Shown here piece after piece: positions 19,863 through 55,579 of a DNA stretch of 64,000 nucleotides (positions are counted from its first letter, which is position 1; every line of letters starts with the position of its first letter). Under the pieces are notes generated by a model that was given only the letters and a program-made list of their open reading frames with translations, did no database searches and was not told the origin of the DNA. This stretch comes from Oceanispirochaeta crateris (GTDB lineage Bacteria > Spirochaetota > Spirochaetia > DSM-2461): the NCBI RefSeq assembly GCF_008329965.1, contig NZ_CP036150.1, forward strand, positions 2,894,439 through 2,958,438, given 5' to 3'. The translations under genes were made by a program, and so were the position numbers.

Positions 19863-22046
19863 ATGTGTAAAACAACGAACATCACAGACCTCGGCAAAAG
19901 TGTCATTAACACCGGGGCTTCCTCCAAGAAAGAGTCCGGACTCTTATCTGTTGTAGAAACAATGGGAATCTCTACGGATCTAATCCTCAATAATACCGAA
20001 GATCCTGTCTTACACATTAGCCATGATGGACTCATATTGGGAATAAATCCCGTAGCGACCGTATCCCTGGGATTCCACAAGGATGAACTTCTCGGCAAGA
20101 ATCTGTTTGACCTCATTCCCGATGAGTATAAGTCTCTCATCCTCAACCGCCTGAATATTGATGAGGAACAAAGGGTCAACGAATCATCTAAAAAAATTAC
20201 GGAGGAGCTCTTCCTGTTGCGCTTTCCCGATAGACGGGGAAAGCTAAAAACCTATGAGGCCATACTGGTTCCTTATGAGGAAGATTCTAGAAAATCCTGC
20301 TTCCTCAACCTTTGGAAGCCTCAATCTGGTGGAAAAGAGCTGGCATCACAGCTCAAGGAAGTCCAGAACAACTATGAAGCTCTAACAGAAACGATAACCG
20401 AAGCAGTGATCATGATTGATGAATCATTTAAAATTTTGTACGCCAACTCTTCCTGCATCAAGGTATTTGGATACAACAAAAATGAACTGATCAATTCTCC
20501 CTTTGCTATGCTCTTCCCTGAAGAAGTTTTTGTGCGGTATTCCGGGGAATTCAGAAAATATTTTTATATAGACTCAGAGGAAAACCAGACTGTCAAAAAA
20601 GAAATAGAGCTGCTGGGCCGTAATAAAAACAGGGGAGTCTCTCCCATAGAGATATCCTTTGGGAACTCCAGAGAACTCGAAAAGAGGACTCTGATCTGCC
20701 TAATCAGAGATATCAGTCAGAGAAAAAATGTAGAAAGAAAACTTAGATATATAGCTTATCACGACAAGTTAACAGAGCTGGGCAATCGTGATCTTTTCAA
20801 TACGGATATCCAAAATTTTTTTAACCTATTCAAAACCCACCCAGGTATCCGCGGCGCCCTCCTATTTCTGGATCTGGATGGTTTCAAACAGGTGAATGAT
20901 ACTCTGGGACATCAGGCGGGAGACAAGCTTCTGATATCCACAGCAAAGCGACTGAGGAATCTGATGAGAGAATCAGATATGATCTATCGATTTGGCGGGG
21001 ACGAGTTTGTTATTCTGATTACCAGTCTCAAGCAGCAGTCAGACGCGGTGGTCATCTGTAACAAGATTTTAAGAGCCATTCAGAGACCCTTTAATTTTGA
21101 TAAAAAGGGGCAGACCCATAGAGTGAATATAGGTGTCAGCATAGGTGTCGCACTCCTCCCCGAACATGGCAGAGACAGAGAAACAATCACACGTCATGCC
21201 GACTTGGCCATGTACAGTTCAAAAGAGGGAGGGAAAAACCGCTACACCATATTTTCACAGGATCTGACCCTTTCGGCTCAAAACAAATGGATCATTGACC
21301 AGGGACTCAAAACAGCCCTCATAAACCAGGAAATGTTTCTCAATTATCAGCCCATCGTCAATAGAGATGGAAAAATTGCAGGAGTGGAAGCTCTGATCCG
21401 ATGGAACCACCCCGAGAAAGGCCTTATCTTCCCTGACGACTTCATACCTTCCGCCGAAGAATCGGGGCTCATAAACCCTCTGGGACAGTGGGTTCTGGAA
21501 CACGCTCTTGTAGATATTGAGGAGCTGAATAAGTCACTGGATCTAGACTTGTTCGTTTCTGTGAATATCAGTACCAGGCAGCTCAAAGCAGCGGACTTCC
21601 CTGATATTCTGAGCATGGCCATAAAAAGATCCGCCATTCATCTTAAAAATCTCCGACTGGAACTAACCGAAACCTTCTTGTTGGAATCTCCGGAAATGGC
21701 AATATCCACTCTGATAAAACTAAAAAAAGACCATCCTGGACTGAAAATCGTCATCGATGATTTTGGAAAAGGATATTCCAGCCTGCACTACCTTAGTCGT
21801 CTTCCCGTTGATTGCATAAAAATAGACAGATCTTTTATCAAGGAAATTCCCGAAGACAATAACCGGAAAATCATTAACTCCATAGTCAATTTAGCAACGA
21901 GTATGGATATGGAAATGGTTGCCGAAGGTATAGAAACAGTGGAACAACAGCACTATCCGCCTCTCGAAAATTGTCAGTATTTCCAGGGATTTCTTTTGGG
22001 TAAGCCCATGTCCCGTAAAAATCTGATACAATTCATCGAGGGCTGA
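19863..22046 (+). CDS. PAS-PAS-GGDEF-EAL cyclic-di-GMP enzyme
   Basis: A 727-residue cytoplasmic protein: two PAS sensor domains (about 35-150 and 160-290), a diguanylate cyclase domain (about 295-460) and an EAL phosphodiesterase domain (about 475-725). The cyclase motif is intact GGDEF (about 378-382) with an RESD inhibitory site five residues upstream. The EAL domain keeps VEALIRW (Glu near 509), NIST, ELTET, DDFGKGYSS, KIDRSF and AEGIET, so the phosphodiesterase should be active. No membrane helices. The start has no good Shine-Dalgarno. It lies 44 bases before an AEC permease gene on the same strand; the link between them is unclear. Confidence 0.95.
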   Translation: MCKTTNITDLGKSVINTGASSKKESGLLSVVETMGISTDLILNNTEDPVLHISHDGLILGINPVATVSLGFHKDELLGKNLFDLIPDEYKSLILNRLNIDEEQRVNESSKKITEELFLLRFPDRRGKLKTYEAILVPYEEDSRKSCFLNLWKPQSGGKELASQLKEVQNNYEALTETITEAVIMIDESFKILYANSSCIKVFGYNKNELINSPFAMLFPEEVFVRYSGEFRKYFYIDSEENQTVKKEIELLGRNKNRGVSPIEISFGNSRELEKRTLICLIRDISQRKNVERKLRYIAYHDKLTELGNRDLFNTDIQNFFNLFKTHPGIRGALLFLDLDGFKQVNDTLGHQAGDKLLISTAKRLRNLMRESDMIYRFGGDEFVILITSLKQQSDAVVICNKILRAIQRPFNFDKKGQTHRVNIGVSIGVALLPEHGRDRETITRHADLAMYSSKEGGKNRYTIFSQDLTLSAQNKWIIDQGLKTALINQEMFLNYQPIVNRDGKIAGVEALIRWNHPEKGLIFPDDFIPSAEESGLINPLGQWVLEHALVDIEELNKSLDLDLFVSVNISTRQLKAADFPDILSMAIKRSAIHLKNLRLELTETFLLESPEMAISTLIKLKKDHPGLKIVIDDFGKGYSSLHYLSRLPVDCIKIDRSFIKEIPEDNNRKIINSIVNLATSMDMEMVAEGIETVEQQHYPPLENCQYFQGFLLGKPMSRKNLIQFIEG

Positions 22047-22090
22047 AACTCTCTTGAAAAAATATATTTAAGACTAGCGGAGGTTTTTCC

Positions 22091-23071
22091 ATGATGCGAT
22101 TTCTTTTTTCCATAGCCTTGATTCCTTTAGGACTGGCCGTAGGACTTGGCATTCGAAACATAATCAGAACTCAAAAAAACAAAGATGCCTTAACCGAGAA
22201 AATAAGAAAAACAATGCAGATCGTGGTACTCCTCTTTACCAACCCTGTGGCCTTTGCCGGGGCGGTGTGGGCGCTCCCCTTGGAGAATTTGGAAATCATG
22301 ATTCTGCCGGTTCTGGGGTTCCTGGCAATCGCGATCAGCGGTGTCTATTCCATAGTGTATACCCGGAATAAAAAAATGACCCGCCCTATGCGGGGTAGCC
22401 ACTTCTGTGTCAGTTTTTACACCAACATTGGCTCCATAGGAGCCTTGGTTATTTATGCTCTGCTGGGAGAACCGGGATTTATTCTCTTACCATTTTACAA
22501 ATTGGTGGAACCTCTCATGTATTTTGCCGTAGGATTTCCAGTAGCGTCTCTCTTTGGAGAAGAAAAACACAAGGACAAACGCAGCATCCTGCAGATTCTG
22601 AAAGACCCCTTCGTCATGGTTTCCATGGGCGGAATATTTCTTGGGCTCCTGTTCAATCTGCTTGGACTTCCCCGTCCTGCATTCTATTCGGGCCTGAACA
22701 ATATTCTGGTTCCATTGGGGTCCTTCCTGCTTCTGATATCCATCGGAATTGCCATGCATTTCCAGAGTATCAAAAAATATGCCCTTTCAACCACCAGCAT
22801 TCTGACCATCAAATATATACTTGTCCCGCTGACGGTCACAACCGCAGCCTACATTTTGGGAATGGGCCGCATTATGAACGGACTGCCTCTGAAAGTTGTA
22901 TTTATTCTATCATCCATGCCCTCAGGTTTTATGGCGATCATGCCCGCCAGCCTCTATAACCTGGATCTGGACTATGCCAACACAGGATGGTTAGCCTCTA
23001 TGATCGCCCTAGTCGTCGTGGTTCCCTGGCTATATTTTTGTCTGAATTACATCATTCCTTATCTGATATAG
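22091..23071 (+). CDS. AEC family (auxin efflux carrier-like) permease
   Basis: A 326-residue membrane protein with about 10 helices and the AEC family layout: an N-terminal five-helix bundle, then the TNIGSIGALVIYALLG crossover region and a second bundle ending LASMIALVVVVPW. Bacterial AEC members export or import small organic acids such as malate or malonate. It has GGAGG 7 bases before the ATG. The gene overlaps the convergent MYG1-like gene by 20 bases at the 3' end. Substrate unknown. Confidence 0.85.
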   Translation: MMRFLFSIALIPLGLAVGLGIRNIIRTQKNKDALTEKIRKTMQIVVLLFTNPVAFAGAVWALPLENLEIMILPVLGFLAIAISGVYSIVYTRNKKMTRPMRGSHFCVSFYTNIGSIGALVIYALLGEPGFILLPFYKLVEPLMYFAVGFPVASLFGEEKHKDKRSILQILKDPFVMVSMGGIFLGLLFNLLGLPRPAFYSGLNNILVPLGSFLLLISIGIAMHFQSIKKYALSTTSILTIKYILVPLTVTTAAYILGMGRIMNGLPLKVVFILSSMPSGFMAIMPASLYNLDLDYANTGWLASMIALVVVVPWLYFCLNYIIPYLI

Positions 23072-23936
23072 AATAATGGGGGATAAGAGACTCTTCCAGG
23101 AGGCTCATCCACTCCCCATCCGATGCGGAGATAAACTTCAAAAGGAATCCTCCCGGATGGCAAAACACCGTTTGGGATGGATGGCAGCGGGTAAAATCCA
23201 GAAGATCCTGGCCGTGACTAGTTCTAAACAGAGCCTTGCCTTTGACGTTATGATCATCAAATGAAGCGACTGCAATGATCTCATGTTCATCGACCATCTC
23301 CTTATCTGCCGACCGAAGGGCTGATGTCAGCTCTTCGGGAGGAAGGACTAAATAGTTCAAAACTTTGTACGTTCCAAACTCTACAATCTCGGTATGCTCG
23401 GGAGACTCCAGCCAGACAAGAGCCTTATTTCTCATATGTTCAAACTGAAGGCTGTCTTTAATGACTTCGCTAACCATTCTAAGAGCATCTACCGGGTCCA
23501 GCTCAAATCCCTTGGTAAGGAGTTTCTGAGAAAAGGACCAGTAGGATTTACTCTCATCCAGGTCCTTGAAGTCATTTAGACTCTGTAACCCCTTGGTATC
23601 CACCCTTGAAAGGAGTCGAATCGATTCATGAAATCTAGATTCTTGTAATTCTGGAAAGAATTCATCGAACATCAGCAGGGCCGTAGAATCCAGATTGCCG
23701 TCTTGATGATGATCGAAGAGCTGTCGCTCCGGATCATAGACCATACCGCAATCCAACACCCAGTCTCCTGGTTCCATTCTACTATCCTTCACAAAACTCT
23801 CAGCCTCTCGGCTGTCCATCCTTATCACTTCATCGGGCTGTTTATCCCGGGTAATACATAGAAGAGCCGCGGCTACAAGTTCATCCATATGAGCCTTGCC
23901 ATTGTGGGTGATAATTCTAAACGATTGATCCCTCAT
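23052..23936 (-). CDS. MYG1/UPF0160 family predicted phosphoesterase
   Basis: A 294-residue MYG1-family protein. The metal-binding signatures of the DHH-like superfamily are clear: ITHNGKAHMDE at residues 8-18 and QLFDHHQDG near 75. Eukaryotic MYG1 is a 3'-5' RNA exonuclease, and bacterial members are assumed to be metal-dependent nucleases or phosphoesterases. Its start overlaps the upstream small gene's stop by 4 bases (ATGA), suggesting coupled translation. The end overlaps the AEC permease gene by 20 bases on the other strand. Confidence 0.85.
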   Translation of the reverse strand: MRDQSFRIITHNGKAHMDELVAAALLCITRDKQPDEVIRMDSREAESFVKDSRMEPGDWVLDCGMVYDPERQLFDHHQDGNLDSTALLMFDEFFPELQESRFHESIRLLSRVDTKGLQSLNDFKDLDESKSYWSFSQKLLTKGFELDPVDALRMVSEVIKDSLQFEHMRNKALVWLESPEHTEIVEFGTYKVLNYLVLPPEELTSALRSADKEMVDEHEIIAVASFDDHNVKGKALFRTSHGQDLLDFTRCHPSQTVFCHPGGFLLKFISASDGEWMSLLEESLIPHYSISDKE

Positions 23937-24187
23937 ACCCTAGCTCTCCAATTCATCATAGGAACCTCTGAAAATCCTTTATTTCGGGAAGAAAGCCCTG
24001 GGGCAACCCTGATTCTCATAGTTTTAAGATCTCTACACTCTCTAATAGAGGCAGAATAAGGCCGGGATATACAATGGTTCACTTTGAATGTTTCTAATAC
24101 ACCCTTTGTTGTCGTTAGTTTGATAAGAATCTCCTTTTGAGGACGCGAATAGGCCGAAGCTACGGTCATCAACATCCGCTTTGCCAT
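23933..24187 (-). CDS. Small basic protein coupled to the MYG1 gene
   Basis: An 84-residue basic protein, MAKRMLMTVASAYSRPQKEI at the start, with no signal peptide, helix or family I recognise. Support for it being real: AGG 5-8 bases before the ATG, a 4-base ATGA overlap with the MYG1-like start, and no other gene in this 255-base space. It could be a short RNA-binding partner of the MYG1 protein, but that is only a guess from position and charge. Confidence 0.5.
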   Translation of the reverse strand: MAKRMLMTVASAYSRPQKEILIKLTTTKGVLETFKVNHCISRPYSASIRECRDLKTMRIRVAPGLSSRNKGFSEVPMMNWRARV

Positions 24188-24276
24188 TTTTACCTATATG
24201 GTGATTTGAAGCAATCTGCCAAAATCTTTTTATTCGCCAAGATAAAAAATATAACTTAAGGAGCCATCCTCTGAAA

Positions 24277-24327
24277 CCCCGGTTGAAATAAAAAAAAGCA
24301 CAGAAATAATCTGTGCTTTTACCGGGG
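24277..24327 (-). terminator. Nested hairpin terminator after the 15-codon gene
   Basis: On the minus strand an 11-bp stem AAAAGCACAGA/TCTGTGCTTTT with loop TTATT is followed by a long T-tract, a textbook intrinsic terminator. It is enclosed by CCCCGGT (24321-24327) and ACCGGGG (24277-24283), which can pair around it. The same CCCC can alternatively pair with GGGG at 24334-24337, so two structures compete. Confidence 0.85.
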
Positions 24328-24369
24328 ATAAAACCCCTTCAAATCTCAAAAGAGATCTGTAAATATAAA

Positions 24370-24417
24370 CTATGATTCAGACACTTCAAAGATTGTCGGA
24401 CTACTCTCTTCACTCAT
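24370..24417 (-). CDS. Putative 15-residue peptide gene
   Basis: A very short frame encoding MSEESSPTIFEVSES. AAGGAG (24426-24431) lies 8 bases before the ATG, a better site than many genes here have. A plausible promoter lies upstream (24467-24495) and a strong terminator downstream, so the whole unit is a transcript of about 175 bases. The peptide is acidic and Ser/Glu-rich with a hydrophobic centre TIFEV, no Cys and no signal sequence. It could be a real micro-protein, a leader peptide controlling the downstream structure, or a small RNA with a chance frame. No related gene is recognised. Confidence 0.5.
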   Translation of the reverse strand: MSEESSPTIFEVSES

Positions 24418-24466
24418 AATCAAAACTCCTTATAACTTGGATTTTGTTCTTATGAACCTAACTCAG

Positions 24467-24495
24467 AGTCTACAACTATCAAGATCCCTTTGCAA
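24467..24495 (-). promoter_or_regulatory. Candidate promoter of the 15-codon transcript
   Basis: Minus-strand -35 TTGCAA and -10 TAGACT with 17 bases between, each matching four of six consensus bases. It lies between the PilZ gene stop and the AAGGAG site. The predicted start is near 24460. Confidence 0.45.
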
Positions 24496-24516
24496 ATAAT
24501 TTCTTCGAAATTAAAT

Positions 24517-25299
24517 TTATCCAGTTTCTAGAGAGAACTCATTCTCAAAGTTCTTTTGAAGAGATGTGCAGATAAAAAGGCGTATTTTCGATTTCATTTT
24601 CTCAGTAGAATCACTGTTGAAAAGAAAAACGTAAAGAGTCTGTTCGCTCTCAATAGTTCGGGTTCCTAGTAGAATAGCATCCACATTGACCAGAACGCCC
24701 CGTAATCGAAGCTGCATATTTCGTATGAGTTGATTCTTAACAAGGGAGTCTGGAAGACGACTAAGAACACAAGACATACCAACAGAACTGATATCCTGTA
24801 TTTCGCCCTGTACCCGGGATTCCATAAAATCGAAGTTCAAAGAGCATTTATCTTCTTCACGGCACTGATACCGGATAAATTTTCTGCGTCCCTTAACCTC
24901 ATTGGCTTTTAGGACCTTCATCATCATCTCAGAAGCCGCAGAGACCCCTTGCTTCAATTGAATAAACCCGCAACTGATGCCCAATTCGAATAAGTAGAAC
25001 TGCATATTTTCTTTTTTTGAAATTTTAAAAGAAAAAATTCCGATTTGAATACCAGGACATTCCTTATTAAGAGAACGTATATAATCCTGCCATTCCAATT
25101 CACTCTGAACGGCGTCGATATTCAGGAAAAAAATAGAATGAGGAAATCTTTTATGGATATCAGGAATCTTCCGGTAATTTAAAAGAGTATAGGCCTCAAA
25201 TTCTTTATCCATCAGGAACTGTAAAAGCTGTGACTTCACCAAGTCCGGAGGATAAACAAATATAATCTTCTTTCCTAGTATTTCATCACTTTCTACCAT
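24517..25299 (-). CDS. PilZ domain c-di-GMP receptor with receiver-like N-terminus
   Basis: A 260-residue cytoplasmic protein. The N-terminal 125 residues resemble a degenerate response-regulator fold (KIIFVYPPDLVKSQLLQFLM) without a clear phospho-Asp. The C-terminal PilZ domain (about 137-245) has both c-di-GMP ligands: RxxxR as R139 to R143 in RRKFIR, and DISSVG (169-174). The protein should therefore bind c-di-GMP and pass the signal to an unknown partner, as PlzA-type proteins do in spirochaetes. AGGAG lies 3 bases before the ATG. A 344-base gap separates it from the divergent HD-GYP gene. Confidence 0.9.
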   Translation of the reverse strand: MVESDEILGKKIIFVYPPDLVKSQLLQFLMDKEFEAYTLLNYRKIPDIHKRFPHSIFFLNIDAVQSELEWQDYIRSLNKECPGIQIGIFSFKISKKENMQFYLFELGISCGFIQLKQGVSAASEMMMKVLKANEVKGRRKFIRYQCREEDKCSLNFDFMESRVQGEIQDISSVGMSCVLSRLPDSLVKNQLIRNMQLRLRGVLVNVDAILLGTRTIESEQTLYVFLFNSDSTEKMKSKIRLFICTSLQKNFENEFSLETG

Positions 25300-25643
25300 A
25301 AACTCCTATCTTCGTCCTAAGGGGTAACCTAAAAGTATAACCCGGGAACTATATATTACTAAATTATGAATAATTCTCATACTGCTCTGGTTCACCTTTT
25401 ACAACAAAGGAGTATTTAGATTCCACAGGAGCATAACTCATAAGCGTTGTTGTTTGAACAGTAGAAGAAACAAAAGATTTGATCTAAAACCTCGTAGACC
25501 ATCTCAATAAGGAAATCTGTAACAGTAACAAGGCGAAATTGTGTTTACAATTTCTACAATCAGATCATTAATAGTATCGGGATCTAGCGTCTAGTATAAT
25601 TCTAGGGGAATTTTTTAGAAATTCCAGAGGTTTAAGCAGATTT
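25300..25643. other. Intergenic control region between PilZ and HD-GYP genes
   Basis: No gene is visible in these 344 bases. Plus-strand features for the HD-GYP gene: a perfect inverted repeat GAAATTGT-GTTT-ACAATTTC (25535-25554), a TATAAT box (25595-25600) embedded among three CTAG tetramers, and a 7-bp hairpin GGAATTT/AAATTCC (25607-25625) just before an AGAGG. No convincing -35 box precedes the TATAAT. Promoter elements for the PilZ gene on the minus strand are weak (TTATACT near 25335). Confidence 0.5.
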
Positions 25644-26807
25644 ATGGAGGACGTCAAAGACGATGACATGAAAAATCATAGTATTCTTATATTAGACGAT
25701 GATGAATCCATAAGAGATTTACTCGAAATCTATTTGTCTGAGAAATACAAGATAGTAAAATCTGCCTCAGGATTTTATGCATTAGAACTCATTACGTCCC
25801 AAAAGATCGACCTGGTTCTCGTCGATGTAAACATGCCTGATATGAGCGGGCTCGAGTTTATTGAACAAGCCAGAATAGTAGAACCCGATATTGCATATAT
25901 AGTCATTTCAGGCAATAGAGATATCGATACGGCCATAGAAGCACTTCATTCGGGTGTTTGGGATTTCATACAAAAGCCCTTTGGAGACATGAACTCTCTG
26001 GATAAGATCATCAGGACTGCCTTGGATAAAAGAGAACTAATTCTCGAGAATCGCCGTTATAAGAAGAATCTTGAAAAGATGGTTCAGGAAAGAACAAGTG
26101 AGTTAGAGAAGAAGAACCAGGAACTTCTTCTGTCTAGAAACAGGATCGTTGGAATACTATCGAGAGCCGCAGAATTTAGAGATTATGAAACGGGACAACA
26201 TTTCATACGGGTATCTAAATATTCGGGTATCATTGCTTCAGGATTAAAAATGGACAATTACGAAGCAGATCTAATCAGACAAGCGGCCCCTGTCCATGAT
26301 ATTGGAAAAATTGGCATACCCGAAAGGATCCTTTTAAAACAGGGGAAACTCACAGAAACAGAATATGAAATCATGCAGAAACACTGCGAGTACGGAGAAC
26401 AAATTTTACAAAGCCAATCACTTGAAAATCTGAATATTCCCCTAAACACAGTCATCCCAGAGGGGTATAACACAGATGACCTGCTGACAACAGCCGCAAA
26501 TATAGCGAAATACCACCATGAACGGATCGATGGGAGTGGATACCCCCTGGGATTAACTGGAAATGACATTCCCATCGAAGCAAAAATTGTAGCTATTGCG
26601 GATGTATATGACGCCCTCGGCAGCGTCCGATCCTACAAGGATGCCTGGAGCGAGAAAGAGTGCCTGGACTATATCATTCAAAATTCAGGAATTCATTTTG
26701 ACCGAGAGGTTGTGGAAGTGTTCCTAAACAATATTGATCAAATACAAGCGATTAAACTAGCCCATGTGGACAAAGAGGAATCCCATTTAATAATAGGTGT
26801 AATCTAA
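25644..26807 (+). CDS. Response regulator with HD-GYP phosphodiesterase domain
   Basis: A 387-residue protein: receiver domain (about 12-130) with phospho-acceptor Asp61 in VDVNMPDMSG, a coiled linker (about 140-165) and an HD-GYP domain. The metal-binding HDIGK lies near residues 219-223 (HDIGKIGIPE) and the GYP motif is HHERIDGSGYP (about 291-301), all intact, so it should hydrolyse c-di-GMP when phosphorylated. The start is uncertain: ATG 25644 or ATG 25668 (MKNHSIL) both lack ideal spacing. No histidine kinase is adjacent, so the partner kinase is elsewhere. Confidence 0.93.
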   Translation: MEDVKDDDMKNHSILILDDDESIRDLLEIYLSEKYKIVKSASGFYALELITSQKIDLVLVDVNMPDMSGLEFIEQARIVEPDIAYIVISGNRDIDTAIEALHSGVWDFIQKPFGDMNSLDKIIRTALDKRELILENRRYKKNLEKMVQERTSELEKKNQELLLSRNRIVGILSRAAEFRDYETGQHFIRVSKYSGIIASGLKMDNYEADLIRQAAPVHDIGKIGIPERILLKQGKLTETEYEIMQKHCEYGEQILQSQSLENLNIPLNTVIPEGYNTDDLLTTAANIAKYHHERIDGSGYPLGLTGNDIPIEAKIVAIADVYDALGSVRSYKDAWSEKECLDYIIQNSGIHFDREVVEVFLNNIDQIQAIKLAHVDKEESHLIIGVI

Positions 26808-26869
26808 AATATTCCCTGATAAAATCTTAAAAAGACCAGACAGCAAGGATTCCACCAATAATTGAATAT

Positions 26870-27766
26870 TTAGAGGCTTTCCACGATCTTCATAAAACGT
26901 CGTCCGTACTCTACATAGTTAGCATATTTTAAAGTCTCTTCGGATCTGGAATCTTTCTCATGGTAGACAAGTGTCATGTGGGGCTCTATGGAAAACCCGC
27001 CATCATAGCCGCTTTGAAGCAGATCTGTCACAATTTCCCGCACCTTTCCTTCCCCTTCACCAGGATAACACCAGTCCGATGCATTAAAAATTTCATCAGG
27101 CTGAATTTTTTTGAAGACACCGTCTTTTATATGTACATAGGCAATATGTTCTTTCACAGCCGAATAAAACTGAAAGGAATCCTGCATATGCCCTTGATGT
27201 CCTTCTCTGTAATCCACTGAATTGAGAGGATTTCCAGTGTCGAAGACAAGCTTAAAATGGGGAGAATTTATCTCTTCCACAAGCCTGAGAGTATGCTCTG
27301 ATGACATACCTCCATAATTGGCACAATTCTCATGCAAATAGCTGACTCCCGCTTCTTCGCAGAGTTGCACAAGGCTTTTTAATTTCTTAAAAATGGTCTC
27401 TTCCAGCTCCCGAGAATAGAGGGACGCATCCCGTAGCCGTGTGAAGCTCATACCCCGAATCATGGTACAGCCTAGTTTTTCCATGCGGGGAAGAGCACGG
27501 CGCAGTTCGGCTAGACTTTTTTGAAAATCTTCTTCTTTGCGGGGATCCCGGCTCCAGTTAGCCACGGTGCTACCAAAACAATTGATGGTAATGCCACTAT
27601 CGTTGAGCATGCCTACCACTGTTTCAAACTGATCTTCCGGAAGATCATGAATGTTCACACCATCAATGCTTCGCGATTCGATACAGGTCCATCCCAACTC
27701 TTTAGTAGCCTGGATCTGAGCCTCCAGTCCAAAGCCGGCTTCATCGGCAAATCCTGTATAATACAT
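26870..27766 (-). CDS. Sugar phosphate isomerase/epimerase-like TIM barrel protein
   Basis: A 298-residue AP-endonuclease-2/xylose-isomerase-like TIM barrel. Metal ligands expected of the family appear as HENCAN (YLHENCANYGG, near 160), VFDTGNP, YVHIKDG and a final SIEPHM. Members interconvert keto sugars or inositols (IolE, IolI, tagatose epimerase types); the substrate is not readable. It is transcribed away from the preceding HD-GYP gene's 3' end and downstream of the double-GGDEF gene, from which a strong hairpin separates it. Confidence 0.82.
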   Translation of the reverse strand: MYYTGFADEAGFGLEAQIQATKELGWTCIESRSIDGVNIHDLPEDQFETVVGMLNDSGITINCFGSTVANWSRDPRKEEDFQKSLAELRRALPRMEKLGCTMIRGMSFTRLRDASLYSRELEETIFKKLKSLVQLCEEAGVSYLHENCANYGGMSSEHTLRLVEEINSPHFKLVFDTGNPLNSVDYREGHQGHMQDSFQFYSAVKEHIAYVHIKDGVFKKIQPDEIFNASDWCYPGEGEGKVREIVTDLLQSGYDGGFSIEPHMTLVYHEKDSRSEETLKYANYVEYGRRFMKIVESL

Positions 27767-27812
27767 ATTAAATAAACTCCTATTTTGAAATTTTTCCTAT
27801 TAAAACAGTCCA

Positions 27813-27850
27813 CTGAAACATCCAGAGTTACCCTACCCTGGATGTTTCAG
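27813..27850 (-). terminator. Strong hairpin at the end of the double-GGDEF gene
   Basis: Perfect 13-bp inverted repeat CTGAAACATCCAG / CTGGATGTTTCAG around a 12-base loop. It overlaps the last bases of the double-GGDEF coding region. On the minus strand it is followed by a GTTTTAAT stretch rather than a pure T-run, so it is a probable terminator or RNA-stability element. Confidence 0.65.
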
Positions 27851-30498
27851 GATGTAGAGCTGATTAAATATTCCTGGATGCTCTTGAGCCCTTTTGTCTT
27901 GGCATTTAAGAGGGCTTGCTCCGCCTTCAGTATCAGTTCATGAGAATCATGATCTCCTGTCGGGATGAGGGAGACAAACCCTAGAGTGAGGGAGACGACT
28001 CCCAGCGGAGATGCTTCATGGGAAATCTTTTTATTCTCAACTGCTTCAATGATGTTATACCCGATTTTCAGGGCTCCATCGGGGAGAACTCCCGGTAAGA
28101 CCATGCAATACTCATCATCCCCAAACCGGGCAATGATATCATTTGGGCGGTTAACTGAAGCATTAAGAACCGAGGCTATCTCAATCAGGCAGGTATCACC
28201 TTGATGCATTCCCAAGCGCTCATTGAACAATTTAAACAGGTCAACATCTGCCATAAAGATGGTAAGATAGCTCTTGTCTCTTTGAGACCGGGCAATTTCC
28301 TTATCCAGTAATTCCTTCAAGAAAGCTTGATTGTATAGACCTGTAAGGGAATCTCTTATACTGAGAAGCTCTACCTGATGATCTATATGACCTTCAATGT
28401 AAAACCCTTTCTTATTATTCTTAGCTGCATATAAAAGCTGATCCGCCTGATGAAGCAGTTCTTCATAATCAAGAGAAACACGGTCGACCCAAAGCAAACC
28501 ACCCGATATGCTGAGGGCTTTCAATGATCCATCAGGGTAGGTAATCTGATGTTGATCCAAAGAGGCATAAAAGTCGTTCATTGCGGTCAGAATAGCTTCT
28601 CTTGATGAGAACCCATGGAGCAGTAATACAAACTCATCTCCCGACCTTCTTCCAAGAATGTGAGAAGAGTTTCCAATCCCAGACAAGGCTGCTGCAGCAC
28701 TCTTAATATAAGAATCCCCCCATTTATGACCAAAGCTGTCATTAATGATTTTCAGGTTATCAAGGTCAAACATGATGAGAGCAGTTATCTTTTTGGGATC
28801 CGCCTGTGCCAGGGTCTTTTCAATTTTCAGCTGTACAGCCTTACGATTTAACAACTTAGTCAAAGGATCATAATCACGCTCTTCTTTGATGAGGTTTTTT
28901 CCAAGGATTTCATCACTGACAACGACAATGACACCAATGGTGCTCTTATCCTCTTCTACAATTTTGATCCTGATATACTTGTCATGATCCAGATCCATTT
29001 TGTAAACAGAATCTTCATCCCTTACGGGTGACTTCATCAAATGACTCAAGTACTCAGTAAAAAGATCCTTCTTTTGAATCATTCTATTCAGTCTATGATC
29101 ATCGAGTTCTAGAATCGTTTGAAACTGTTCGGTAACAAAGATTCTGTCTGAATCATCTCTGATCTCAAAGGCCCCTATGGGAAAATCGGTTAAATCGATT
29201 ATTTTTGATAACCTCACGGCCGACTCTGTCAGCCTCACATTGGCACTTTCTATGGCACCCAATAATCCGTCTATTTCTGTAAACCCCGTCGCCAGAAGTT
29301 CTACCGATTTATCATGTTCTCTATCTCCTACCCTTTTGGCAAGCCTTGCAATTGGCTTTGTGAAGAAGTAGCTGATAACGATACCACCAAAGATAGCCAT
29401 TATAATAGAAGCCAGAATTGATATTTCGAGGATACTCTTTATTTTGTTGATATAACTCAGCAGATGATCTTCTCTCATCATTCCAATCAAATACCAGGAT
29501 TCATTTTCAAATGGCGTATTCACCTTGTACAGACCAATTTGGTCAATACAGGCATAGATTGTCTCCTCACTATTAGTATTTTCAATAGAAAAGATATTTC
29601 TGTCTTTATCGACTTCAAGCAGATTTAAGTCCTCTTTCTGATTTATCATCCTTTTTTGTAAGGCCCCAACCATGAGTACGGGTTTGATTGACTGCGTCCC
29701 TTCTCCATGATATCCGATGAGATAACCTAGAGAATCCTTATCATGTAGATCATTTGAAGGAAGAAACTTACTGAAATAGTTCACTGATATTTCAACACCA
29801 ATGATTCCTCTCAACTTGCGGTTTGAATCAAAGAGCGGCATGGAATAGGTCAAAATCTGCATATCATTTTGAAACAGTGTAAAAGGAGTGCTCCAGTACC
29901 CTAACAACTCTGTATTAAAAGTCAGAGAGGCTTTTGAATAGGGGATATCAAAGAAATCCTTATTCTCAGAAGTGTACTCCATTCTGTTTTTCCAGAACCT
30001 GTCCAGAGGTATTTTTTTCTCTTTGGCTATGGCTGAAGAACCAAGAATCATATAGAGGTCTTTATTGGAAAAGTCATTTAACCTGGGTTCATAATCCCGG
30101 AGATAGAGGGCAGGTGATTCTGATCCTTCCCGGTCCAATAGAATGAATGCGCCGGATGTCTTTGTCGCTCTAAGCATACCAACCAGATCATCAAAAACAG
30201 ATTCAAAAAAGGAATCATCAACTTGCTCTGTAGGAAGCTTATTGGAGATACGCTGCATATAGGGGGCCACCTGTGACCAACTATTCTTCATTTCACCTTT
30301 AAGATAGGCATTTCTATTCTGTGTTTTATCCATAAAGGATCGCATAGTATTATCTATGGCTTGCCCCATGACTCCACCAAAGTAGGGAAAACCAAGTAGA
30401 ACTGAGGATTGGATGATCACCAAGATGACAACAAGAACAGTTACTCTAAAGAGAATCGATTTCCTGTCTATCCTAAATTTCAGAATATTCCAGATCAT
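27847..30498 (-). CDS. Membrane sensor with two GGDEF domains
   Basis: An 883-residue protein: membrane helix near 15-38, a periplasmic sensor region of about 320 residues (Cache-like, with YSMPLFDSNRKLRGIIGVEI), a second helix (about 360-385), a HAMP-like linker, a PAS-like stretch, then two GGDEF domains. The first carries SGDEF (about residue 620), the second GDDEY (about 795) with an RPND inhibitory-like site upstream. Neither is a canonical GGDEF, though the metal and catalytic acidic positions remain. The ATG at 30498 lies just 5 bases after the stop of the solute-binding lipoprotein gene; a TTG at 30507 would overlap it. Confidence 0.9.
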   Translation of the reverse strand: MIWNILKFRIDRKSILFRVTVLVVILVIIQSSVLLGFPYFGGVMGQAIDNTMRSFMDKTQNRNAYLKGEMKNSWSQVAPYMQRISNKLPTEQVDDSFFESVFDDLVGMLRATKTSGAFILLDREGSESPALYLRDYEPRLNDFSNKDLYMILGSSAIAKEKKIPLDRFWKNRMEYTSENKDFFDIPYSKASLTFNTELLGYWSTPFTLFQNDMQILTYSMPLFDSNRKLRGIIGVEISVNYFSKFLPSNDLHDKDSLGYLIGYHGEGTQSIKPVLMVGALQKRMINQKEDLNLLEVDKDRNIFSIENTNSEETIYACIDQIGLYKVNTPFENESWYLIGMMREDHLLSYINKIKSILEISILASIIMAIFGGIVISYFFTKPIARLAKRVGDREHDKSVELLATGFTEIDGLLGAIESANVRLTESAVRLSKIIDLTDFPIGAFEIRDDSDRIFVTEQFQTILELDDHRLNRMIQKKDLFTEYLSHLMKSPVRDEDSVYKMDLDHDKYIRIKIVEEDKSTIGVIVVVSDEILGKNLIKEERDYDPLTKLLNRKAVQLKIEKTLAQADPKKITALIMFDLDNLKIINDSFGHKWGDSYIKSAAAALSGIGNSSHILGRRSGDEFVLLLHGFSSREAILTAMNDFYASLDQHQITYPDGSLKALSISGGLLWVDRVSLDYEELLHQADQLLYAAKNNKKGFYIEGHIDHQVELLSIRDSLTGLYNQAFLKELLDKEIARSQRDKSYLTIFMADVDLFKLFNERLGMHQGDTCLIEIASVLNASVNRPNDIIARFGDDEYCMVLPGVLPDGALKIGYNIIEAVENKKISHEASPLGVVSLTLGFVSLIPTGDHDSHELILKAEQALLNAKTKGLKSIQEYLISSTS

Positions 30499-30503
30499 AT
30501 AGT

Positions 30504-31922
30504 TCAATTAACAAGAGAGAGTAGTTCTTCATGGATTTGATCATACCATTTCTCAAATTCCAACTCGGAGATCAAGGCTTCGACGAGTTTAGATCGGTCT
30601 TCTCCAGAATTGACCTGTTCCTCAACCAGTCCCAAATCTACAGTGATTTTACTGAATAAATGACTTTCCAGGAGAGACCTTAACTCAAAACTACCTTCAA
30701 ACGGTTTGGTACTGTACAGGGTATAGTTGTCCAGCATGTAAACAGTAGAATCAATCACTCCAGGAATAGCAGCACCGATCCTTTCCATAGAACTCAGTGC
30801 TTCGTACATCTTTTCCTTTTTCAGAGACTCATTCATGACGGGCATATATCCTGTTAAGGCTGAAAATTCCACATTTTGTTCGGGCTCTGTGAACCATTTT
30901 AGAAATAGTCCGGCACCATATTCATGAGGCTCATCGCTTTTTGTTATACACATTCCGGCACCCTGCTGATACGCAAAAGCGCGCCCCTCTTCAAAATAAG
31001 GATAAGGAAGGGTCATTGGGTCTATAGGATAAACATCTCCATCAGGAAGAGTCACTTCTGTGGGGAAATAGACGGCACCAGCGGTCGAGCCTGTATACGC
31101 CAGAACAGAATCTGTTCTGGCATCATCAGAGCTGTAGCGTCCATTCTTCTCAAAGAATCCTTTCATGTAGGGAATATAATAAAATTCCCAAATTTTTCTG
31201 GCTATCTCTTTTGTAAAGTTCAAGGAAACAGAATCGTCTTTGACGGAATAAATCTCAGAACCGAGCTGTATCGCAGAAACATACATGAAGTTGGCACTCG
31301 CATCAATTCCTAAGAATGCTTTCCCTGTTAGATTGTAATACTCCTCTGCAACTTCAAGAACTCCTTCCCAGGTCCTTAATCTATTTATATCTGCACCGCT
31401 GACATCCACGAATTCGTCCCAGAAGGTTTTATTCAAATACAGGATCTCAGAGGACTTTGCTATAGGAAATATTTTCAAGCCCGTCCCTGTGCCGATTTTC
31501 CCTTCATCCAGAAATTCTTCTCGATACCTTGCTAACTCCTGCTCTGTAAAAAGGGTGTTGATATCCAACAATTCGCTTATAAGATTCACCCTGTAAGCAT
31601 TATCAGGGTAGGATAAGAAAAGGTCCGGCAGAGGGAGAGAGCCTATGGTTTTATTCGCTGAATCATACACAGCATTCGCTAACTGACCGACATCTCCATA
31701 ACTCTGAGAATCCACAACGATCCCTCTTTCAACGCCCACGGTTTCATTAAAATGTTCAACAAGAAGGTCAAACTGATTCTGAATATTTCCATTATAATAA
31801 TGCCAGACGGTGATAGTAATTGGTTTTGATGGATCTAATGGGTCATTATCCTGAGAAACAAGACCGCAACTTGTAATCAGAACGATGGTTATTAAAAAAA
31901 GGAACTCTTTACGAACCTTCAT
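30504..31922 (-). CDS. Extracellular solute-binding lipoprotein paired with a GGDEF sensor
   Basis: A 472-residue family-1-type solute-binding protein. The signal ends in a good lipobox (LITSC, Cys19), followed by the usual ITVWHYYNGNIQNQFDLLVEHF opening of carbohydrate-binding proteins (DxW/YHY type), and DLFLSYPDNAYRV. No ABC permease or ATPase gene is near; instead the next gene, 5 bases on, is the membrane double-GGDEF sensor. It therefore probably serves as a periplasmic ligand-sensing partner rather than a transporter part. AAAGGAG lies 8 bases before the ATG. Confidence 0.88.
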   Translation of the reverse strand: MKVRKEFLFLITIVLITSCGLVSQDNDPLDPSKPITITVWHYYNGNIQNQFDLLVEHFNETVGVERGIVVDSQSYGDVGQLANAVYDSANKTIGSLPLPDLFLSYPDNAYRVNLISELLDINTLFTEQELARYREEFLDEGKIGTGTGLKIFPIAKSSEILYLNKTFWDEFVDVSGADINRLRTWEGVLEVAEEYYNLTGKAFLGIDASANFMYVSAIQLGSEIYSVKDDSVSLNFTKEIARKIWEFYYIPYMKGFFEKNGRYSSDDARTDSVLAYTGSTAGAVYFPTEVTLPDGDVYPIDPMTLPYPYFEEGRAFAYQQGAGMCITKSDEPHEYGAGLFLKWFTEPEQNVEFSALTGYMPVMNESLKKEKMYEALSSMERIGAAIPGVIDSTVYMLDNYTLYSTKPFEGSFELRSLLESHLFSKITVDLGLVEEQVNSGEDRSKLVEALISELEFEKWYDQIHEELLSLVN

Positions 31923-53976: not shown

Positions 53977-54106
53977 AACAACCGTTAACAAATTTCCGAG
54001 GTACTGATTCTAAAGCTTCTGCCTTCAACAGGCACAAACCATGAAGATTTACCCGCAAGGTTGTTCCGGAAACAGAACGGCCTCCCGTGTTTGGAAAGGA
54101 AATACA

Positions 54107-55579
54107 TTGAAAAAGAATGGAATGATCCTACTGATAGTTCTTCTACCCTTTCTGTCATATGCAAAAGACTTCAATTTTGGAACATCAGAACTCCTAAGAA
54201 TCCTAGGTTTAGAAACAGTCAAAGAATCAGAGGTTTCAATCGATCATCATCTTTATAAGGGGAGTTCCCTTTTAGAAATTCTTCCCTTGATGGAAGAGGT
54301 CTACCAGATGGAAATCCAAACCGCTTCTGAAACAATATTGATGAACGAAGAGGCCCTAGGAGAATTCTGGGCCGAATCCTGGTTGATTCCGAAAAAAGCA
54401 GGTCTCGATCTAATCTTCAATGGTAAAAAATACGACGATCTGGTTCAACTGAAATTCAAGGGTAGCCCCATGGAGTCAGAAAAACTGGAGATATGGCTCT
54501 CTTGGGAAGGCGTCGACTTACTGAAAGAGGAAATCCAGAGATTTGCAAGGCATCATAATATTGAAATCAAGTCGATTGAAGTCCCAAGCCCCGATTCCAA
54601 ATTACAAGCTGTCGTCAGAGCCCGGGGAGAGGTTCCGGATCTCGTTATGATTCAGTCCAGTGCTGTAGAGAAACTAGTTTCCAGCAGAGCTATTCAAAAC
54701 CTGAATTATGTACAGACTTCAAGCCTCATGGACCAGGGGGTGGAAGCGTTTACTCTGAATAATAAACTCTGGGCTCTTCCTTTTTATTATGATACTCAAA
54801 TTGTTTTTTACAATAAGTCTCTCATTCCTGCCCCTCCCTCTGCAAACTGGACTCTCAATGATATGGAACAGATAGCCCGCAGTATTAAAGGCCAGGGGAT
54901 TTATCCTCTGGCGTGGAATGCTTACTCATCCAACTGGCTTATTCCTTTCCAAATGTCCTTTGGAAAAGAGGATCTTATTGATGCCAACGGCAGGATATCT
55001 GTGAATGATATTGCTACAAAGAAAGCTCTGGAATACATCTTAAACCTGAAAGATAAAGAACTTCTTTTTCCCATGGAACGAGATGCGATGGATGCCCTTT
55101 TTATCGCCGGAAAAATAGGCATGATCATGAGCGGATCCTATGGCATCCCTTATTTTGAATCACTGGGGCTTAACTTTGGAGTACTCCCCTATCCTGTAAA
55201 TCAAACAACAAGACGGCCTCTCTCTCCTCTTCTGGATTTTAAGGCATTTTGTATGACCCGTCAGACAAAGCACCCCATACTATCACGCCGGCTGCTTCAG
55301 TATTTGCTCAGTGCTTCTGTGCAACAGAGATTCTGTCCCGCCTTATCCAAACTTCCAGCACGTACAGATATCCTTGAACTCCCGGATATTGCCTACGGAG
55401 CTCTACCCGTTCTCGAATCTTCTATGGATAAAGGTACAATCATCCCACCCCTACAGGTTTACAGTATATACAAGAACAATATGTGGAAACTTCTCAGGTT
55501 CGCTCTCTCTGATCAGATGTCTGTTCAACAGACATTAGAAAAAGGACAGCTCCTGATGGACAATACAATGAATGATTAA
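54107..55579 (+). CDS. Solute-binding protein with an extra N-terminal beta domain
   Basis: A 490-residue exported protein. TTG 54107 is preferred: GGAAAGGA precedes it by 6 bases and it yields a signal peptide (KKNGMILLIVLLPFLSYA); the ATG at 54041 has no such site and gives a long odd leader. Residues about 20-120 form an extra domain with YKGSSLLEILPL and MEIQTASE, which looks like the repeated domain of the next protein. The rest is a sugar-type solute-binding fold (ERLEIWLSWEGVD-like start, VPDLVMIQSSAVEKL, LPFYYDTQIVFYNKSLI, SGSYGIPYF). No lipobox is visible. Confidence 0.85.
   Translation: MKKNGMILLIVLLPFLSYAKDFNFGTSELLRILGLETVKESEVSIDHHLYKGSSLLEILPLMEEVYQMEIQTASETILMNEEALGEFWAESWLIPKKAGLDLIFNGKKYDDLVQLKFKGSPMESEKLEIWLSWEGVDLLKEEIQRFARHHNIEIKSIEVPSPDSKLQAVVRARGEVPDLVMIQSSAVEKLVSSRAIQNLNYVQTSSLMDQGVEAFTLNNKLWALPFYYDTQIVFYNKSLIPAPPSANWTLNDMEQIARSIKGQGIYPLAWNAYSSNWLIPFQMSFGKEDLIDANGRISVNDIATKKALEYILNLKDKELLFPMERDAMDALFIAGKIGMIMSGSYGIPYFESLGLNFGVLPYPVNQTTRRPLSPLLDFKAFCMTRQTKHPILSRRLLQYLLSASVQQRFCPALSKLPARTDILELPDIAYGALPVLESSMDKGTIIPPLQVYSIYKNNMWKLLRFALSDQMSVQQTLEKGQLLMDNTMND

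Follow-up and report, generated by a model that had tools for sequence, protein, structure and literature searches.

The window, i.e. the whole stretch of 64,000 nucleotides analysed here, carries a micro-gene on its minus strand, from 24495 to about 24290, for which an RNA of about 170 nt with a 15-codon frame between folded segments is predicted. On the upstream side lies a PilZ-type gene (24517..25299, minus strand; product of 260 aa), which is outside the element and also neighbours its orthologous copies; on the other side an 84-aa ORF (23936-24187, minus strand) lies between the element and a MYG1-like gene.

Parts of the element and its surroundings

All parts of the element lie on the minus strand. 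The sigma70-type promoter TTGCAA-N17-TAGACT (24467..24495) has its -35 hexamer TTGCAA at 24495-24490 and, after a 17-nt spacer, its -10 hexamer TAGACT at 24472-24467. A hairpin, GTTC-ATAA-GAAC (24446..24457), stands at the inferred transcript start, followed by a Shine-Dalgarno (SD) sequence AAGGAG (24426..24431), 8 nt 5' of the ATG at 24417. The 15-codon micro-ORF MSEESSPTIFEVSES spans 24370..24417, with the end of its TAG stop codon at 24370. Two hairpins, H1 (CAGATCTC-TTTT-GAGATTTG, 24340..24359) and H2 (GGGG-TTTTAT-CCCC, 24324..24337), separate the stop codon from an intrinsic terminator, AAAAGCACAGA-TTATT-TCTGTGCTTTT with a T-run (24290..24320), in which the 11-bp stem occupies 24320-24294 and the T-run extends to 24290. 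The promoter, the ribosome site at its spacing, the 15-codon frame and the 11-bp terminator of the original prediction are thus all present, on a strand that it had not named. Taken alone, such signals do not exceed chance: the region holds 10 promoter-like matches against 7.1 expected from shuffled DNA and three terminator-like matches against 2.5, and a lone 15-codon frame is a trivial occurrence. It is the conservation in relatives that makes the window element more than chance.

A switching terminator had also been proposed. The segment CCCCGGT (24327-24321) can pair either with ACCGGGG 3' of the terminator (24277..24283) or, via CCCC, with GGGG (24337-24334), and the folding program prefers the CCCCGGT/ACCGGGG stem when ACCGGGG is included. 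This alternative pairing is possible, yet its partner is missing from the four congeneric genomes G001-G004 and is confined to the window genome, where it lies on the scar of a deletion; therefore, we judge it incidental. The 84-aa ORF is the C-terminal remnant of a 206-aa gene that is full length in G001 and G002. Since it aligns only to residues 122-203 of that gene, a deletion in the window genome most likely took away the start of the gene, so that ACCGGGG came to lie beside the terminator.

The surrounding region, 19863-30507, is likely a cyclic-di-GMP cluster, with a GGDEF-EAL gene (assigned by eye), the PilZ-type gene, a response regulator with an HD domain (Pfam) and a tandem GGDEF-like gene (by eye). 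The PilZ-type protein of the window genome is 60-62% identical to its counterparts in G001-G004, and the RxxxR and DxSxxG columns are invariant in 11 homologues; its match to Pfam PilZ (E=0.098) is below the Pfam cut-off, and a profile search found no solved relative. The N-terminal region of this protein, about 130 aa, is conserved in spirochaetes.

A family of 14 members in several spirochaete genera

The region 24460-24291 aligned with the four congeneric genomes G001-G004 at 71-79% identity (E 1e-14 to 1e-39), and in each of them the orthologous element immediately follows the counterpart of the PilZ-type gene. In G005, the fifth genome of the genus, the PilZ gene is present but no element follows it. 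The orthologous frames MIEEDSPTICRGSEI (G002), MNDESSPTISFVLIL (G003), MTDESGPTIFSALSGHFR (G001) and MNDESSPTIYGSIFL (G004) keep the head of the peptide, which reads MIEEDSPTI, MNDESSPTI (twice) or MTDESGPTI, and leave its tail free.

Model searches recovered the same promoter-hairpin-SD-frame layout at 14 places, with E from 1e-13 to 1e-20: the five orthologues and nine others, in at least four spirochaete genera, one of which is of another bacterial family. The window chromosome itself holds a second copy at about 1,955,043-1,955,300 (MTNEGEPPYMKIDL; G000b). The remaining copies are those of G005 (MNKELDPPDRVVSLFL; G005b), G004 (a second copy, MTNESDPPEIRRLHINQ; G004b), G016 (MNNEGEPPKLVVFLQC), G020 (MNNEGEPPKIEFFLEL), G008 (MNSKGEPPNY), G012 and G007 (TTG start; LLNNEGEPPKLKGFMN and LLNNEGEPPKLKGFEF, each given from its first TTG) and G098 (MNSMKDEPPEMRVSLFV), the genome of the other bacterial family. 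Two types of head, ESSPT and EGEPP, are found among the members, and the paralogous heads read MTNEGEPP, MNNEGEPP, MNSKGEPP, MNKELDPP, MTNESDPP and MNSMKDEPP. Contamination of G098 from the family of the window genome is unlikely, since the same contig carries an mscS-like gene whose closest relative (61%) is in a member of G098's own family.

Further searches of the order, the family, a class sample and a phylum sample, the large ones run with strict filters, added no further clear members. A pattern scan of named genomes gave true matches in JAFGXR010000003, JAEINM010000021 and JADGDJ010000122, which correspond to G007, G016 and G020; the remaining ten matches were taken as chance. A permissive SD-ATG pattern, run over 395 genomes of the class, was poorly designed, returning mostly chance matches and missing the window's own copy. 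The plasmid collection held no match to the element, the single match among viral contigs lay inside a long coding frame and was not the element, and of the weak model matches (E above 1e-5), those inspected lay within coding sequence or at its start. At the end of contig C65 of G013, from the same genus as G008, a family-like promoter stands before GTATGTTTAAACAT and a repeat of TAGT that reaches the contig end; it is perhaps a decayed or misassembled copy.

No such family is present in Rfam 15, and the Rfam covariance models, the c-di-GMP riboswitches GEMM-I/II included, gave no gathering match in the element; the L20 leader matched one member below threshold (E=0.086). The comparisons between genomes indicate that the module is almost certainly a real and previously unlisted family. 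To our knowledge, little is known about either small RNAs or micro-proteins in free-living spirochaetes. With a defined promoter, hairpins and peptide motif, recurring in at least four genera, the family offers a searchable model.

Constraint on the frame and on the hairpins

The SD sequence and the start codon are kept in 14/14 members, with TTG as the start in G012 and G007. AGGAG is invariant in the 13-member alignment A5 and is also found in G098; the SD stands 7-10 nt from the start codon in all copies but G005b, where the distance is 14 nt. The micro-ORF is 10-18 codons long, of which about the first eight to nine are conserved, and an unconserved tail of 2 to 10 codons follows PP/PT. 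In the EPP group, the first and second bases of the [D/E]-P-P codons are constant and the third bases take 3, 2 and 3 states, and the sole length change within the conserved segment, in G098, is a whole codon. When both subfamilies are taken together, there are 222 third-position differences vs 207 at the first position, and codon differences are synonymous in 98 cases and non-synonymous in 269, a substitution pattern that is only weakly coding-like. Ribosome stalling at PP was considered as a family-wide feature and rejected: PPX occurs in nine members, whereas each of the five orthologues has SPT or GPT instead.

Among the orthologues, the nucleotides themselves are also constrained. The stretch AGTCCGACAAT is nearly identical throughout, more so than the neighbouring coding sequence; the codons CCG ACA are the same in 5/5 orthologues, whereas in the PilZ gene beside them, out of 23 four-fold codons that are invariant, only 2 are identical in their nucleotides. 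Overall, the micro-ORF is probably translated, and the frame reads as one that may be translated and also constrained as RNA.

Most members have two hairpins between the stop codon and the terminator, whose sequences change while the pairing holds. H1 is near-invariant in the five orthologues, where one-side changes in G003 keep the pairing. In the other members its sequence differs while the arms still pair, and across the family more than one type of base pair is seen at six of its seven positions. H2 stands at the same place in relatives with other pairs (GGAGC/GCTCC, AGGAT/ATCCT, TGAAC/GTTCA and GTGAAC/GTTCAC); G000b has no clear H2, and G004b has a single hairpin. The post-ORF region without the terminator folds better than its dinucleotide shuffles (z -1.9 to -4.4), with at most 1.4% of shuffles folding as well in 13/14 members and 4.2% in G008. 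The H1 arms pair at 100% when matched vs 64% when swapped between members, and the H2 arms at 96% vs 52%; as the arms were picked from each member's own fold, this swap test is not fully independent, whereas the shuffle test is. Covariation in the five-orthologue alignment A4 was not above that of column shuffles. An intrinsic terminator is found in all members, with GCACAG/CTGTGC or a similar stem in most and another sequence in G004 and G098.

The original prediction had named as its own test whether relatives keep the frame and the stems; both are conserved in the four congeneric genomes, and across the family the frame is kept in all 14 members and the two hairpins in most, which supports the part of it that sees a micro-ORF, a regulatory RNA or both under a separate promoter.

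Possible function and known parallels

On balance, the sequence comparisons suggest that the element is an independently transcribed small gene, most likely for a dual-function small RNA, of a family outside Rfam. The transcript would be a stable RNA, about 170 nt in length, that starts at the 5' hairpin; ribosomes would translate the micro-ORF; and the product, whether RNA, peptide or both, would act on no neighbouring gene. Dual function is favoured because the frame constrains amino acids and the nucleotides of AGTCCGACAAT are near-identical in orthologues; this stretch would then have a base-pairing or structural role too. The module recurs in several spirochaete genera at positions in the genome that have nothing in common, and action in trans appears likely.

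A conditional form of this dual-function RNA is a tentative and rather unlikely extension. Here GTTCAT at the 5' end would either form the 5' hairpin or cover the start codon (ATGAAT/ATGACT) while AAAATCC pairs with the SD sequence, and a signal would decide whether the peptide of constant head and variable tail is made from an RNA that otherwise acts in trans. The predicted probability of an unpaired AUG is below 0.1 in 8/14 members, the window copy included, and matched duplexes of 5' end and start are better than swapped ones (p=0.028, uncorrected for kinship). The three orthologues G001, G003 and G004 do not show the occlusion of the start codon, and the leader plus ORF folds no better than its shuffles (z +1.2 to -2.2).

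If the element were a plain micro-protein gene, the peptide of 10-18 aa would be its sole product, and H1 and H2 would merely protect the 3' end of a short mRNA. The universal SD, start and frame, and the third-position variation of the [D/E]-P-P codons, are what such a gene would have; however, the tail is conserved in neither sequence nor length, AGTCCGACAAT is more conserved as nucleotides than neighbouring coding sequence, and a two-hairpin layout kept across families exceeds what a short mRNA needs, so that this explanation appears unlikely. It is quite improbable that the element is a non-coding regulatory RNA, antisense or protein-binding, with an incidental or decoy frame. Compensated hairpins, strong nucleotide conservation within the frame and a short unconserved tail would suit it; SD and start in every member, even with the TTG start of G012 and G007, the [D/E]-P-P codons that vary at the third base only, and the codon-sized length change speak against it.

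The 5' hairpin allows another explanation, which is compatible with any reading of the product. A promoter of the form TTG...-N17/18-TA...T is found in 14/14 members, and its -10 element ends 7-9 nt before the GTTC of the hairpin; therefore, the transcript would open directly with the hairpin. As a palindrome at the transcript start with an almost invariant sequence, GTTC-N4-GAAC could instead be the DNA operator of a repressor with a small regulon. However, the spacer between the half-sites varies, being 3 nt in G008, 5 nt in G005b and otherwise 4 nt; G012 and G007 have a UUCG loop; and G020 breaks the palindrome yet holds the RNA pairing by a U-G wobble. The stem is kept in nearly all members, one pair being lost each in G002 and G004b. 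Loop length, UUCG loop and wobble favour an RNA hairpin, which would fit better than an operator, and the latter is very unlikely.

The genes next to the copies bear on two further proposals. Where the downstream sequence is known, the next gene is convergent in 5/13 copies (G003, G000b, G005b, G008 and G004b) and co-directional in the window element (G000), G001, G002, G016, G020, G012, G007 and G098; the G004 orthologue lies near a contig end. The downstream genes differ between clades: a FliK/FlhB-like gene in one genus, represented by four genomes, the 206-aa gene and MYG1 in G001 and G002, and the mscS-like gene in G098. The original prediction had placed the element in a c-di-GMP region, which holds for the local neighbourhood, where the PilZ-type gene stands beside five orthologues. 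The nine non-orthologous members adjoin unrelated genes (GGDEF-DHH, TauE-like, FliK/FlhB-like, MscS and transporters). The window copy sits among c-di-GMP genes and the G000b copy is behind a GGDEF-DHH-DHHA1 gene, but other copies have no such surroundings, so that a c-di-GMP role is unsupported by position. The leader-peptide attenuator, or a riboswitch acting on the downstream gene, is scarcely credible: the micro-ORF followed by hairpins and terminator resembles uORF attenuators, and eight copies have co-directional downstream genes, but there is no conserved antiterminator and no Rfam riboswitch, the ACCGGGG partner specific to the window sits at the deletion scar, and downstream genes that are convergent or unrelated mean that cis attenuation is not the function of the family.

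For the dual-function small RNA that we favour, the nearest parallels are functional. Spot 42 of E. coli, with the 15-aa protein SpfP (Aoyama et al. 2022, cited in PMC10339803, PMC11955535), is described in the citing papers as both a riboregulator and an mRNA, and is likewise a small RNA with a 15-codon frame. The spirochaete element differs from it in sequence, phylum and peptide, has no match to Spot 42 of Rfam, and is multi-copy with a constant N-terminus; its pairing with any target mRNA is putative. By analogy, the element may work like Spot 42/SpfP; none of the comparisons made identified it as a homologue. VcdRP of V. cholerae also combines a pairing segment and a small protein in one transcript and is thus a candidate for working alike; however, its base-pairing segment is proven whereas the one here is putative, and its protein VcdP is longer, at 29 aa (PMC8672173).

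In layout, the element resembles the fthC motif of Streptococcus, a uORF candidate thought to be cis-regulatory, in which a first hairpin, the SD and AUG of a short frame, another hairpin and a terminator follow one another in the same order (PMC11109978). That motif is always upstream of fthC, whereas the spirochaete family has no consistent downstream gene and its stop codon is usually outside H1. The sORF candidates of intergenic-region surveys, as defined in the same paper, share with the element a conserved start and stop, coding-compatible conservation and a position not suited to regulating a main ORF (PMC11109978); unlike these, the spirochaete family has compensated hairpins and its own conserved promoter.

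Two of the copies belong to Oceanispirochaeta crateria K2 and one, that of G008, as it appears, to Thiospirochaeta perfilievii P. Both strains are in the DSMZ collection and have closed genomes (PMC7380536), which makes them ready subjects for a test of expression. The family also raises the concrete question of the role of a peptide with a constant head of eight residues and a free tail.

Elsewhere in the window, a Moco (molybdenum/tungsten cofactor) riboswitch (Rfam RF01055, E=1e-13) lies on the plus strand at 53982-54117. The listed start of a 512-aa ORF, which resembles an extracellular solute-binding protein, is at 54041, inside this riboswitch, and its true start is therefore probably downstream.
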